Source of the DNA: Candidatus Geothermarchaeota archaeon | Lineage (GTDB): Archaea > Thermoproteota > Nitrososphaeria > Geothermarchaeales > JDFR-13 | NCBI GenBank assembly: GCA_015523725.1 | Contig: WAJV01000086.1 | Location: 1 to 51,423 of the forward strand | DNA length: 51,423 nt | Reading direction: 5' to 3' | In this document: positions 11,801 through 15,871 of the stretch, in pieces | Position numbering within the stretch: the first letter of the stretch is position 1 | Layout: each line of letters opens with the position of its first letter | Notes under the pieces: model-generated | Seen by the model: only the letters and a program-made list of their open reading frames with translations | What the model was told of the DNA's origin: nothing | The model's database searches: none | Made by a program: the position numbers and the translations under genes

Positions 11801-11870
11801 TTTCAAAAAATTTTGATTCTTCAATCAAAGATATGCTATATAAATATTTTGAAGTCATGGAATTTGGTTG

Positions 11871-13121
11871 ATGAGCATCTATCTGACTTTTGATGAGAGT
11901 AGTGGTTCGGAATTTGAGGTGGAATGGAGTTTATTCAGGAGGGGCATTAATTTTGTGGGTAGGTATGTTGATTCGATTATAATTGAGTTTTGCGAGTATG
12001 CTTATAGCCATGGTTATCATTCAGTCTTGTTTGATGTCATGGGGGAGTGGTTTAATATTGATTTAGGTGTAGGGGATGTTTCAAGATATTTATTTGGTGT
12101 TGATATACCTGCTAATATTTTTCTTCCACCACCTGGATTAGATAAGTATTTTTATTTTGAATTGGTTGCTGATTATCTTGATGTAGTAGCTGGTAATTTG
12201 GGTTATAGGGTGAGTGGCTGGAAGCCGCTCTTCATAGATCTATTGATTAGTGTTTACGAGTCTGAGGGTACGATTAATAATGAGATTTTGAGTAGCCGTG
12301 TCGAGATTCTTAGGAATGAGGCTTCTGGGTATGATAAGGTTGTTTATAATTGGTTGGCTGGGTTATTAAGATATTTGATTTATAGTTCAGATGTTAAGAG
12401 GCTTTATTATGTTGATGAGCCGATTAAGTATGAGTATGTTGTGGGTGATGCATCGTTAATTGATTATTCTGCTATAAAGGGTTTTTATCAGAGGCTTCTT
12501 CCGTATATCGCCACTCTATTTACCAGTTTGGTGTATGATTTTAAGCGGTTAAATATTTTTTTCTTAGGTGAATTATATCTAGAGAATCCTGCACCTAGTA
12601 TGGTCAATGTTTTGTTAAAGTCTTATAGTTATTTGATTAACCTTATACATTTTAGTTATTATAAGAGTAATTTGTTTAGTTATTTGCCGGCTTATAATTT
12701 ATTTGTAGATAATTCTTTTGTTGATAGGATTTTGAAGTATTATGGTTTTGATAGGATAAAGTTTATTGACGCTTCGACGCACCACTATATATCCCTAGGT
12801 AGATTTTTGCCGATCAGTGTTGATAGGGAATTGAATGAATTAAAGACGAATTTTTCTAGTGACGTATCAGTAGATGAGTCGTATGCTCCAGATAAGTCTC
12901 TTGTTAAGAGGATATTGCTTATTGTTAGGGATTTGGGGAGTGTGGGTGTTGAGGGTATCTATATGTATTTGCGTGAGTATGGTCGTGGTGATGTTTATAT
13001 GGCGGTTGAGTGGATGTGGAGGGAGGGTCTATTGAAGAGGAGTAGATTTGGGAGAGGATATGTTTATAAGATTAGTATCAAGGGCTTAATGTGGCTTAAG
13101 GAGGGTGGGGATGATGGTTGA
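11871..13121 (+). CDS. Degenerate HerA/DUF87-like ATPase homologue with C-terminal winged helix
   Basis: A 416-residue protein without a full family match. Its layout follows HerA/DUF87 ATPases. GINFVGRYVDSIIIEF at about 26-40 stands where Walker A should be, and SVLFDVMGEW at 51-60 mimics the DPHGEY strand. NIFFLGELYLENP at 228-240 lies where Walker B would be, with the acidic D replaced by G. Residues 345-412 look like a winged helix (SVGVEGIYMYL...GRGYVYKI). GKS/T and DE are both missing, so ATP binding is unlikely. It overlaps the RecA-like gene by 8 bp, so a complex with that ATPase is plausible. The assignment is my inference. Confidence 0.65.
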   Translation: MSIYLTFDESSGSEFEVEWSLFRRGINFVGRYVDSIIIEFCEYAYSHGYHSVLFDVMGEWFNIDLGVGDVSRYLFGVDIPANIFLPPPGLDKYFYFELVADYLDVVAGNLGYRVSGWKPLFIDLLISVYESEGTINNEILSSRVEILRNEASGYDKVVYNWLAGLLRYLIYSSDVKRLYYVDEPIKYEYVVGDASLIDYSAIKGFYQRLLPYIATLFTSLVYDFKRLNIFFLGELYLENPAPSMVNVLLKSYSYLINLIHFSYYKSNLFSYLPAYNLFVDNSFVDRILKYYGFDRIKFIDASTHHYISLGRFLPISVDRELNELKTNFSSDVSVDESYAPDKSLVKRILLIVRDLGSVGVEGIYMYLREYGRGDVYMAVEWMWREGLLKRSRFGRGYVYKISIKGLMWLKEGGDDG

Positions 13122-14106
13122 GAGATATATTGTTAGGAGTATTCCAAGGCTGAATACTTTTTTTGGGGGTGGAATACCTAAAGAGAGTATGGTTCATTTA
13201 TATGGGCCGTTCCAGAGTGGTAAGACTTTGTTGGTTTATCAACTGCTATATGAGCTTGTTTACCAGGGTTTGGGGAATGCATTGTATATAGATACAGAGG
13301 CATCATTTAGAAGCAATTTCTCGGATACAGTGGGAAGAAGATTTGAAGAGAGGTTCGGAAAAGGTGTGAGATTATGTGACGTTAAGTTATCTAGGAGTGT
13401 TTTAATGCGTGGTGGTAAAAAATTAGGTGTGAGTGAGTTTAAGAGGGAGTTGGCTGCTATACTTGATGATTTAGGTATATTATATGATATTGAGGACTTG
13501 AGTGACGCCGTTAGATTGTTTACTAGGAAGGTTGATTTGGTTAGTGATGAGAGGGGGAAGAAGATTATATATTTACTAGATGGTGTAGATCTGGCTCTTG
13601 CCCTTAAGATTCTCGATATAGAAGCGGAAGTGGGGCGTAAGGGTGAGAAGACTGAGGTTAAGATAAAGGGTTTGTCGGATCCTGTTACATCACCCTTGGC
13701 TAAGTTTATTAGAAAATATAGGGTATCATTCTTAGTTATTGATAGTATGGGGATGCTTGTTAAGGGTTTAGCAGTTTCTCTATCTGATTTACCTGCTAGA
13801 GCCGTTGTCACCAATCTAATTATCGGTAGTTTGATAAGGTTGGCCAGCATATATGGTTTGGTTGTTATAGCGACTAATCATGAGAGTAGGAATCCTACTG
13901 GTAAAGGGTTTCATTCATTTTATGGGGGGAATGCATTTGGATATGGTTTTAAGTATTCACTTTATCTATCGAAATTGGGTAAAGGCCTTAGGAGATTGGT
14001 GGCTGAACGCTCGCCTATACTGCCTGAATATAGTGAATATATTGATTTGAAGATCGGTGAGGATGGTTTCTATGAGGTTGAGAGTGTTGATAAAGATACT
14101 GGCTAA
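13114..14106 (+). CDS. RecA-superfamily ATPase (RadA/RadB-like paralogue)
   Basis: A 330-residue ATPase. Walker A is GPFQSGKT at residues 31-38 after the RecA-type opening IPRLNTFFGGGIP. ALYIDTEASF is the conserved second strand, FLVIDSMG at 206-213 is Walker B, and VVIATNHESRNP is the sensor region. Between A and B there are about 170 residues instead of the usual 80-100. The extra part, about 95-195, holds charged helices and a lysine-rich KGEKTEVKIKG loop. It has no N-terminal HhH domain, unlike RadA, so it is closer to RadB. The start ATG at 13114 has GGGTGG upstream. It is part of a four-gene cassette. Confidence 0.85.
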   Translation: MVERYIVRSIPRLNTFFGGGIPKESMVHLYGPFQSGKTLLVYQLLYELVYQGLGNALYIDTEASFRSNFSDTVGRRFEERFGKGVRLCDVKLSRSVLMRGGKKLGVSEFKRELAAILDDLGILYDIEDLSDAVRLFTRKVDLVSDERGKKIIYLLDGVDLALALKILDIEAEVGRKGEKTEVKIKGLSDPVTSPLAKFIRKYRVSFLVIDSMGMLVKGLAVSLSDLPARAVVTNLIIGSLIRLASIYGLVVIATNHESRNPTGKGFHSFYGGNAFGYGFKYSLYLSKLGKGLRRLVAERSPILPEYSEYIDLKIGEDGFYEVESVDKDTG

Positions 14107-14449
14107 AATTAGCTTGTTTATCTTTACTTTCATCTTTCTAAGTATTGGTGTGGGAGTGATATATGGTTCCAGCGAATTCTCCTTATTGATCGATGTAGTA
14201 ATTATCTCTATATTAATTTATTTTATTTTCCTCAGTAGGATGGGGTTTCTGAGGAAGTTAGTGGTTATTTTACTCACCATGTTGTTCATAGTTTATCCAT
14301 ATTTGATAGGTCTCTTATTGATTATATATTTATTGTTGGTTAATCGTCATCTATTTCCGATCCTTCTCTATTATGTCCAAGATATCTTTAATAGGTGGCG
14401 GGTGGTTTTAAATGGTTTTCTCCGTCTTCGAAGTGAGGAGGAGGATTGA
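14072..14449 (+). CDS. Small membrane protein of the RecA-like cassette
   Basis: About 120 residues with four hydrophobic segments, a basic N-terminus and an acidic C-terminal tail (RLRSEEED). It overlaps the end of the RecA-like gene and the start of the next gene. The start is unclear: ATG at 14072 with GAGGATGG upstream, or GTG at 14084 with GAGGT upstream. I recognise no family. The position suggests it anchors or works with the cassette proteins at the membrane, but that is context only. Confidence 0.65.
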   Translation: MRLRVLIKILAKISLFIFTFIFLSIGVGVIYGSSEFSLLIDVVIISILIYFIFLSRMGFLRKLVVILLTMLFIVYPYLIGLLLIIYLLLVNRHLFPILLYYVQDIFNRWRVVLNGFLRLRSEEED

Positions 14450-15221
14450 TGGATTTCTGACTAGTGATTTTCATGTTTTGAACCTATATATATCTTTCAT
14501 TGGTGCAGGTGTATCTATAGTATTGGAAGCGCGTGGAAAAGATGGGTATAATGTTTTTAGGTATGGAGCCCCTGGCCCTCAAATCCCAAAGGGGACTTTG
14601 TTCAAGTTTTTTCCTGGTTTAAAGGAGGAGGAATGGCTTACTCTCCATTTCGGTGAGGTGCTGTTATATAATGTCGTTAGATATGGGAGGCGGTATAGGT
14701 GGGGTGTGTATAAAGGTTTTACCAGCGGCAGGTCATTGTTCAATGGTATTAGGAGGAGGTTAATAGCTATGGGATTAGTGAATAATAAGATGGTTAAACA
14801 GTATAGGGAAGATTATTTTAAAATTAGATTAGTAATTGATCTTGGTCCAAATGTTCTCGATGCTTTGGATATATTGAGATATCTACCTGGGCCCAGAGCC
14901 ATAAGTAAACGTTTATATTCGTTCTTGGCTCGATATGGGAATAGCTTGAATATTCCTATTAAATATTTGTATAGGATTAGTACCCCATTATCTAGTTTCA
15001 AGGACGAGTTGGTGATGGATTATATCCAATATAATTCTAGGTTTGGATCTGACTTGAATAATTGGATCAATGGTTTGGTATTCAATAGAGATATTGTAAT
15101 CGGGTTTGTACCTAATATTAGGCATGATGGAGTTAATGTGTGGTCTGGTGATTCATGGGTATTGGGTAGTTTGATGGATATGGATGATGAGGGAGGGTTT
15201 ATATGTAGGTTGGTTATTTAA
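14412..15221 (+). CDS. Hypothetical protein, last gene of the RecA-like cassette
   Basis: A 269-residue soluble protein I do not recognise. It has an N-terminal region with GAPGPQIPKGTLFKFFPG, a basic middle (GIRRRLIAMGL), a helical stretch around RYLPGPRAISKRLYSFLARYG, and an acidic tail region MDMDDEGGF. It starts at ATG with GGGTGG upstream and overlaps the membrane protein gene by 38 bp. Its stop overlaps the rhomboid gene's end by 4 bp on the opposite strand. No catalytic motif is evident. Confidence 0.7.
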   Translation: MVFSVFEVRRRIDGFLTSDFHVLNLYISFIGAGVSIVLEARGKDGYNVFRYGAPGPQIPKGTLFKFFPGLKEEEWLTLHFGEVLLYNVVRYGRRYRWGVYKGFTSGRSLFNGIRRRLIAMGLVNNKMVKQYREDYFKIRLVIDLGPNVLDALDILRYLPGPRAISKRLYSFLARYGNSLNIPIKYLYRISTPLSSFKDELVMDYIQYNSRFGSDLNNWINGLVFNRDIVIGFVPNIRHDGVNVWSGDSWVLGSLMDMDDEGGFICRLVI

Positions 15222-15871
15222 TATTGAGGGCTCTTCGATATTCTATATATTATACCGGCTATTAGACCGACTGCGAAGCCTCCTATGTGGGCCCAATATG
15301 CTACTGGTAAGTTGATTAATGATATTATTGTTATTGATGCAAATATTGCTTGTAATATGAACCAGAAAAATATGTAGTATATTGCCTTTACTTCGATAAT
15401 CCTGAAGAAATAATATCCTATGGGAATTACGGTTAATATTTTTGCGTTTGGGAATAACACTAGGTATGCGCCTAGTATTCCGGATACAGCTCCGGAGGCG
15501 CCTATAGCTACTATGTAGGGATTTACCGCTGTTATCGAGAATAGTATTGAACCGGCTGCTCCTGATAGTATGTATAGGATTAGGAATTTTAGTCTGCCGA
15601 ACTTGTCCTCTATATTATCGCCGAATATCCAGAGAAACCACATGTTTCCTATTACATGTTCTAAACCTCCGTGGAGAAACATTGATGTTATTATCGTCTC
15701 AATTCTCTCCATTTTATATAGATAGATGGGTCTAAAGCCGAATCTATCTATTATCTCTTGGTAGTTTGGCTGTATTGCTAGATATATGAATATTATTATG
15801 TTTATGATGACGAGTAGTTTTGTTAGTATCGGGGATTTCTCTGTTTGGTTTATATCTTTTATAGGGAACAT
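15218..15871 (-). CDS. Rhomboid family intramembrane serine protease
   Basis: A membrane protease cutting substrates within the bilayer. The catalytic serine is in GASGAVSG and the catalytic histidine in AHIGGFAVG, on separate helices. The family HGGLEHVIGNMWFLWIFGDNIED loop is also present, with the conserved HxxxN pattern. About six helices in 217 residues is the minimal rhomboid core. It converges on the RecA-like cassette, overlapping its last gene by 4 bp, and shares an intergenic region with the alkyl-transferase gene. Confidence 0.94.
   Translation of the reverse strand: MFPIKDINQTEKSPILTKLLVIINIIIFIYLAIQPNYQEIIDRFGFRPIYLYKMERIETIITSMFLHGGLEHVIGNMWFLWIFGDNIEDKFGRLKFLILYILSGAAGSILFSITAVNPYIVAIGASGAVSGILGAYLVLFPNAKILTVIPIGYYFFRIIEVKAIYYIFFWFILQAIFASITIISLINLPVAYWAHIGGFAVGLIAGIIYRISKSPQY

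Follow-up and report, generated by a model that had tools for sequence, protein, structure and literature searches.

A Nitrososphaeria gene cassette joining a predicted inactivated HerA-type domain, a RadA-type ATPase paralogue and a membrane protein

HerA ATPases of archaea take part in DNA import and in the resection of DNA ends, whereas archaeal RadA paralogues serve as recombination helpers; the two are known separately. Here we describe a cassette in which relatives of both are encoded side by side, found in a 51,423-nucleotide (nt) contig of the hot-habitat Candidatus Geothermarchaeota archaeon (NCBI assembly GCA_015523725.1, contig WAJV01000086.1, C86 in our numbering; hereafter referred to as the window). 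The window belongs to a Geothermarchaeales genome of 1.43 Mb and 72.7% completeness; Ca. Geothermarchaeum rappei JdFR-14 and two further metagenome-assembled genomes are its named relatives.

The four-gene block

Four genes on the + strand, here called g1 to g4, occupy window positions 11871 to 15221 and, as the initial annotation had described, are co-directional and overlap at every junction (g1/g2 by 8–17 nt, g2/g3 by 44–50 nt and g3/g4 by 38 nt). The g1 gene (11871 to 13121; ATG, with a TTG at 11868) encodes 416 residues, comprising a predicted inactivated HerA-type ATPase domain and a C-terminal winged helix. The g2 gene (13114 to 14106; ATG, with alternative starts at 13105 and 13111) encodes a predicted RadA/Rad51-type ATPase paralogue of 330–333 residues. 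The g3 gene (14063 to 14449; GTG at 14057) encodes a small membrane protein of 128–130 residues with four transmembrane (TM) segments predicted by hydropathy, in agreement with the membrane protein assigned to the set at the outset. The g4 gene (14412 to 15221) encodes a 269-residue soluble protein, which has no recognised fold and evolves fast (28% identity within the genus). In addition, g4 overlaps by 4 nt a convergent gene for a rhomboid-family membrane protease (15218 to 15871, − strand), and a rhomboid gene lies near the cassette in several genomes of the family.

Distribution and conservation of the cassette

Within Geothermarchaeales, g1 is present in 10 of 12 genomes, and in all ten it lies directly 5′ of g2, with a small membrane protein after them and flanking genes that vary between genera. 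A g2 profile built from 25 sequences was scanned against 400 genomes of the class Nitrososphaeria and a sample of 398 genomes from the phylum. The profile matched 46 of the 400 class genomes (best match per genome, 315–478 bits), and the strong matches in the phylum sample were the window genome and one class member only, the rest scoring at most 61 bits (genome scoring). The carriers belong to five Nitrososphaeria families (labelled here f1, f3, f5, f8 and f11), and the cassette was not found in f2, f4, f6, f7, f9 or f10, as far as sampled. Thus, the search for co-occurrence across Thermoproteota suggested by the initial annotation shows that the cassette recurs, but only within these five families of one class. 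More than one copy is present in three f11 genomes.

Of the 47 loci read, 46 have g1 immediately upstream of g2, in most cases overlapping it by 4 nt, and the surroundings change. The sole exception, locus L051 in the single f8 genome (G046, 86% complete), has g2 and the downstream membrane protein with no adjacent g1, and a search for a full-length g1 elsewhere in that genome found none. In locus L048, g1 is split over two frames. The membrane protein almost always adjoins the g1–g2 pair, and outside f1 one downstream protein, with TM and soluble parts, occupies the place of g3 and g4. As judged from these comparisons, the conserved unit is g1–g2–membrane protein only, with g3 and g4 corresponding by position to one gene elsewhere; the proposal that the genes travel together is accordingly supported for this unit, one protein replacing g3 and g4 outside f1. 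The four reading frames are real genes and not chance open reading frames, because the relatives of g1 and g2 keep their order in 10 of 10 family genomes and across five families. In a phylogenetic tree, the g2 sequences form one clade apart from RadA, and each archaeal family forms one branch (Shimodaira–Hasegawa-like approximate likelihood ratio test (SH-aLRT) support, 98–100), as vertical descent predicts.

Loci L071–L077, from other members of the class, contain a 220–235-residue RecA-like protein that adjoins a helicase-like gene and resembles g2 in its N-terminal part only (59–67 bits). With no g1 nearby and scores of at most 67 bits, these proteins were rejected as g2 orthologues.

g1 resembles an inactivated HerA-type ATPase

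On its own, g1 had no match in Pfam, NCBIfam or the PDB, and its relationship to HerA emerged only from family-wide profile comparison. Profile–profile alignment (hhalign) between 43 g1 sequences and 16 proteins of the HerA family, taken from related genomes, gave a probability of 97.5% and a score of 95 over 267 collinear columns, as against scores of at most 29 for reversed and unrelated controls, which substantiates the HerA/DUF87 strand and helix order proposed for g1 from the single sequence. Sub-family profiles of f1 and f11 scored 58 and 70, respectively, against HerA, and profiles restricted to f3 or to f5 gave nothing. The ATPase model of CedD also matches one g1 relative over the Walker B region, weakly (E 0.003). 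By profile alignment, the HerA-like core spans approximately residues 18 to 290 (11922 to 12740, + strand), and the order of secondary structures in an AlphaFold model agrees, with low confidence.

The active-site motifs of this domain are degraded, as the initial annotation had also recognised from the missing GKS/T and DE pair. In the alignment with HerA, the P-loop of g1 is approximately three residues short and has lost GKS/T, and the Walker A motif (GxxGxGKS/T) is absent from all 43 g1 relatives. The site of Walker B lacks the acidic pair (DE or EE) of HerA and reads GEL or GDF in f1 and TGAH or TEAH in f11, where some members retain EAH, a residual Walker B common to them and HerA/DUF87. 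The D-x-x-G after strand 2 is retained in most g1 relatives. The HerA profile match, the lost GKS/T and the degraded Walker B together indicate that g1 is an inactivated HerA-type domain, in which Walker B can still be followed through successive stages of decay. Compared with HerA/DUF87 proteins of the FtsK–HerA superfamily, with which it shares the strand and helix order and D-x-x-G, g1 differs not only in its P-loop but also in the 20–25 or so residues ahead of strand 1, which leave no room for the N-terminal HAS barrel, in its added winged helix, and in adjoining a RadA paralogue instead of NurA.

The C-terminal winged helix (residues 342 to 410; 12894 to 13100, + strand) was modelled with a predicted local distance difference test (pLDDT) score of 61–90 for the block, and is nearest to AspA, PadR and MarR. 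Among solved structures, AspA is the closest by fold (Foldseek; root mean square deviation, 1.4–1.5) and among the closest by sequence profile (E 4e-4), confirming the winged-helix tail first noted on g1. Structure prediction and a Foldseek search, which had been recommended for g1, thus gave a usable winged helix, but the model was otherwise weak and Foldseek found winged helices only.

g2 is a predicted RadA-type paralogue

In contrast to the ATPase motifs lost from g1, the catalytic motifs of g2 are intact in all or nearly all of its 47 relatives, which upholds the earlier assignment of a RecA-like ATPase with intact Walker A and B sequences. Walker A (GPFQSGKT; 13204 to 13227, + strand) is present in 47 of 47, as is D[TSV]E, which in g2 is DTE (13291 to 13299, + strand; D60 and E62 invariant) and contains the catalytic glutamate of the RecA/Rad51 type. 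Walker B reads VIDS (13735 to 13746, + strand), with D210 and S211 invariant. Between these motifs, an insertion of approximately residues 83 to 200 (13360 to 13713, + strand) appears as a gap in the RadA alignment and opens with a conserved basic patch (6.6 K/R versus 2.4 D/E per 20 residues in 25 sequences).

The best relatives of g2 by sequence and fold are RadA and Rad51, and weak matches extend to the ArlH/FlaH models. Like RadA, Rad51 and RadB, g2 has the ATPase core, the catalytic glutamate and the GG and ATP-cap region. Unlike them, it has no N-terminal helix-hairpin-helix DNA-binding domain (the alignment begins at RadA column 96), carries the insertion of approximately 100 residues, has a shorter L2 loop and replaces the glutamine of the RadA TNQ sensor with an invariant histidine (H256). 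Against the RadA model, g2 scored about 54 bits in one search and 31 bits for the best segment in another, below the cut-off of 259. Because RadA is also present in every genome of the order (12 of 12), g2 is an added RadA/Rad51-type paralogue and not the recombinase itself. The RadA of the window's genome (G000:C107:52767-55259, L130) contains a P-loop intein, the frame continuing through ...CILHN/TQLCHTLAV in one 851-residue open reading frame.

The control region upstream of g1

A palindromic operator-like element (TTTCAAAAAATTTTGATTCTTCAATCAAAG; 11801 to 11830, + strand), with a core at 11811 to 11825 (TTTTGATTCTTCAAT), precedes g1 and is followed by an archaeal TATA box (TATATAAAT; 11837 to 11845, + strand) located approximately 30 nt before the g1 ATG; the aligned relatives have TATAA in the corresponding position. 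This spacing implies that the g1 transcript is probably leaderless. In f1, the core of the element (TTTTGAAKCTTCAAT) lies 46–60 nt upstream of the g1 ATG, ahead of the TATA box, and it is kept in four species of two genera. The combined operator and TATA motif occurs exactly once per genome in the genomes of three relatives, always before g1, and the operator 15-mer with at most one mismatch likewise occurs once per genome, apart from one further, weak match within another gene in G003. Taken alone, the copy in the window is not above chance.

In f11, the same place holds two to three 9-base-pair (bp) units with a 13-bp period. At least eight of nine letters match in 20 of 26 loci, as compared with 0.8% in shuffles, the loci being related and hence representing fewer independent cases. 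The letters of the unit differ between sub-clades (ACAAGTTGT, ACCTAAGAT/ATCTTAGGT and others) and the spacing is constant. The operator sequences of g1 are represented by TTTTGAAGCTTCAAT and by three ACAAGTTGT units with the 13-bp period. The array is present in 9 of the 11 f11 genomes searched, each time before g1, with a second copy that is strong only in G168 and weak in G626. A genome-wide regulon was rejected, the operator being practically one site per genome except in G168. Because the letters of the operator and the cassette change together, these data suggest that the reader of the operator is encoded in the cassette itself, and the winged helix of g1 would be the simplest candidate.

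A second operon under the same operator

In G168, the identical 22-bp operator array stands before the gene for a 901-residue protein, P0001. Residues 1 to 94 of P0001 are the same membrane module as that found in the downstream protein of the cassette (43.8 bits and blastp values down to 6e-9, with HerA controls near 0). The C-terminal half of P0001 consists of a HerA ATPase in which both Walker motifs, A and B, are intact. Since P0001 fuses the membrane module and a HerA domain under the cassette's operator, it supports a physical pairing of the cassette's membrane protein with the HerA-type domain predicted in g1. The operon (G168:C1:2084-7525, L163) continues with genes for proteins of 689 and 192 residues; the former has an acidic N-terminal half and a C terminus that looks nuclease-like by eye, with no family match.

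Interpretation

The anatomy of the cassette, that is, its domains, motifs and gene order, is well supported. For its function we tentatively favour an ATPase assembly that is anchored at the membrane, handles DNA and descends from a membrane HerA-type translocase, with a RadA paralogue having taken over as the motor. In such a course of events, the ATPase domain would have been freed from the translocase and lost catalysis while keeping a scaffold role, and the RadA paralogue would have become the motor. In this mechanism, g1 would be without catalytic activity and would serve as an adaptor or ring, bearing the winged helix and providing a docking site for g2; the ATPase core and basic insertion of g2 would load on or move DNA; and g3, with g4 or as the single protein elsewhere, would hold the complex at the membrane, as the module may hold the active HerA in P0001. 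The substrate is likely to be DNA, since this is what both ATPase lineages act on and since the insertion in g2 is basic. The likely task would be to capture or translocate DNA in a process coupled to recombination, or else to tether the chromosome to the membrane, and the g1 winged helix probably reads the operator, which would make the operon self-controlled. The fuller proposition, an archaeal membrane DNA machine with a dead HerA scaffold, a RadA-paralogue motor and a private, repeated operator or centromere-like site evolving together with the cassette, is more speculative, and we consider it doubtful as a whole.

CedB, CedD and VirB4 are ATPases of membrane DNA import and conjugation, and among the membrane HerA proteins described so far, the closest that we found is CedD of the Ced system (PMC11868833). 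The cassette shares with them the link between a HerA-type domain and a membrane module, and P0001 has the same layout of TM segments and ATPase; the cassette differs in that the membrane and ATPase parts lie on separate genes and the ATPase part is apparently dead. The gene set combines members of known superfamilies in an arrangement that appears to be undescribed: the open-licence papers searched contain no account of it, although one may exist elsewhere.

Several observations weigh against a membrane-anchored DNA-handling assembly. The helix with which the g1 winged helix would read DNA is, on average, acidic (−2 net), at odds with ordinary DNA binding, so that DNA binding by g1 is not a given; this is the main objection to DNA as the substrate. 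The AlphaFold models, built with four sequences, are weak (mean pLDDT of 47 for g1 and 53 for g2), the RadA-like fold of g2 being usable. P0001 represents one genome and one event, and its ATPase domain resembles bacterial plasmid proteins, namely DUF87 proteins from plasmids of Streptomyces (39%). The single downstream membrane protein scored 13–16 (hhalign), the level of controls, against the N-terminal domains of CedD, and a CedD/VirB4-type N-terminal domain in it was rejected for lack of signal. Homology to that single protein was undetectable for g3 and g4 of f1, and likewise between g4 and its soluble part; the notion that g3 and g4 are its split form was therefore rejected in spite of the same place and layout. 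Finally, the flanking genes differ between families and give no steady functional hint, and the gene neighbourhood was discarded as a guide to function.

Other functions would account for parts of these data. The cassette could be a membrane machine that does not act on DNA, in which a dead HerA ring and a live RecA-fold ring move protein or assemble a filament, or a complex that remodels membranes and uses the winged helix to bind protein. The archaellum proteins ArlH, ArlI and ArlJ suggest how an active RecA-like ring and a dead one could be combined on a membrane protein, and RecA-fold ArlH/FlaH proteins, which g2 matches weakly, serve such machines; the nearly constant membrane partner and a g1 winged helix that is not basic would also fit. 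These are, however, different families: g2 is nearest to RadA/Rad51 and not to ArlH, the cassette has no sequence match to ArlI or ArlJ and no recognised pilin or platform family, and the insertion of g2 has its basic patch. We regard a non-DNA machine as unlikely, and consider improbable to a similar degree a role in signalling or gene control, with g1 as a HerA-derived regulator of its own operon and with g2 and the membrane proteins sensing stress. The private operator directly before the promoter, the PadR/MarR-like winged helix and the reuse of the operator for a second operon in G168 argue for such a regulator, yet a 270-residue HerA domain and a full RadA-type ATPase far exceed its needs, the reading helix is acidic, and the operator may be bound by a different protein.

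A segregation or anchoring system like AspA–ParB–ParA or SegAB, in which the g1 winged helix would bind the palindromes as a centromere-like site, g2 would supply ATP-driven movement and g3 would fix the system to the membrane, seems to us quite unlikely. AspA of plasmid pNOB8 has the winged-helix fold closest to that of g1 and likewise a palindromic array before its operon, and the array of the cassette lies ahead of the operon in the manner of plasmid centromere sites, is practically unique per genome and changes its letters with the cassette while keeping its period. However, the cassette is chromosomal with one array per genome only, its winged helix is fused to a HerA-type domain, the gene set contains no relative of ParA or ParB, the AspA match is also a general PadR/MarR match, and the reading helix is acidic; moreover, the second copy in G168, before another operon, resembles a promoter operator. 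That the genes are chance-retained remnants of a mobile element or defence system is very improbable. HerA ATPases occur in defence systems, and g2 weakly matches the MADS component mad8 (E 3e-6), but the mad8 match comes without partner genes and no complete PADLOC component set was found, there was no plasmid or phage match, and the PHROG matches were to general recombinases only; a mobile or defence origin was thus rejected for want of support from these comparisons. It is further contradicted by vertical descent, with one g2 clade per archaeal family, and by frames and g2 motifs that are intact across five families.

If the membrane-anchored DNA-handling assembly is correct, a membrane-located unit in which a dead HerA is stably joined to a live RadA paralogue would couple the two in a new way, and would offer a clear case of one ATPase family replacing another as the motor. 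As a vertically inherited and nearly always single unit with its own operator, the cassette has a function that is open to direct testing, and several proteins would leave the list of unknowns in relatives of ammonia-oxidising archaea.

Other HerA-type genes near the cassette

In f3 (L048–L052; region approximately 6–9 kb after g2), GatD and GatE, named by eye, are followed by a pair resembling NurA and HerA, the partners in DNA-end resection. This pair lies approximately 6–8 kb beyond the cassette, a linkage that may be due to chance. In G524 (L079:4607-5779), an intact 390-residue HerA-type ATPase (GTTGSGKST and VIDEAQ) is encoded convergently just after the cassette.

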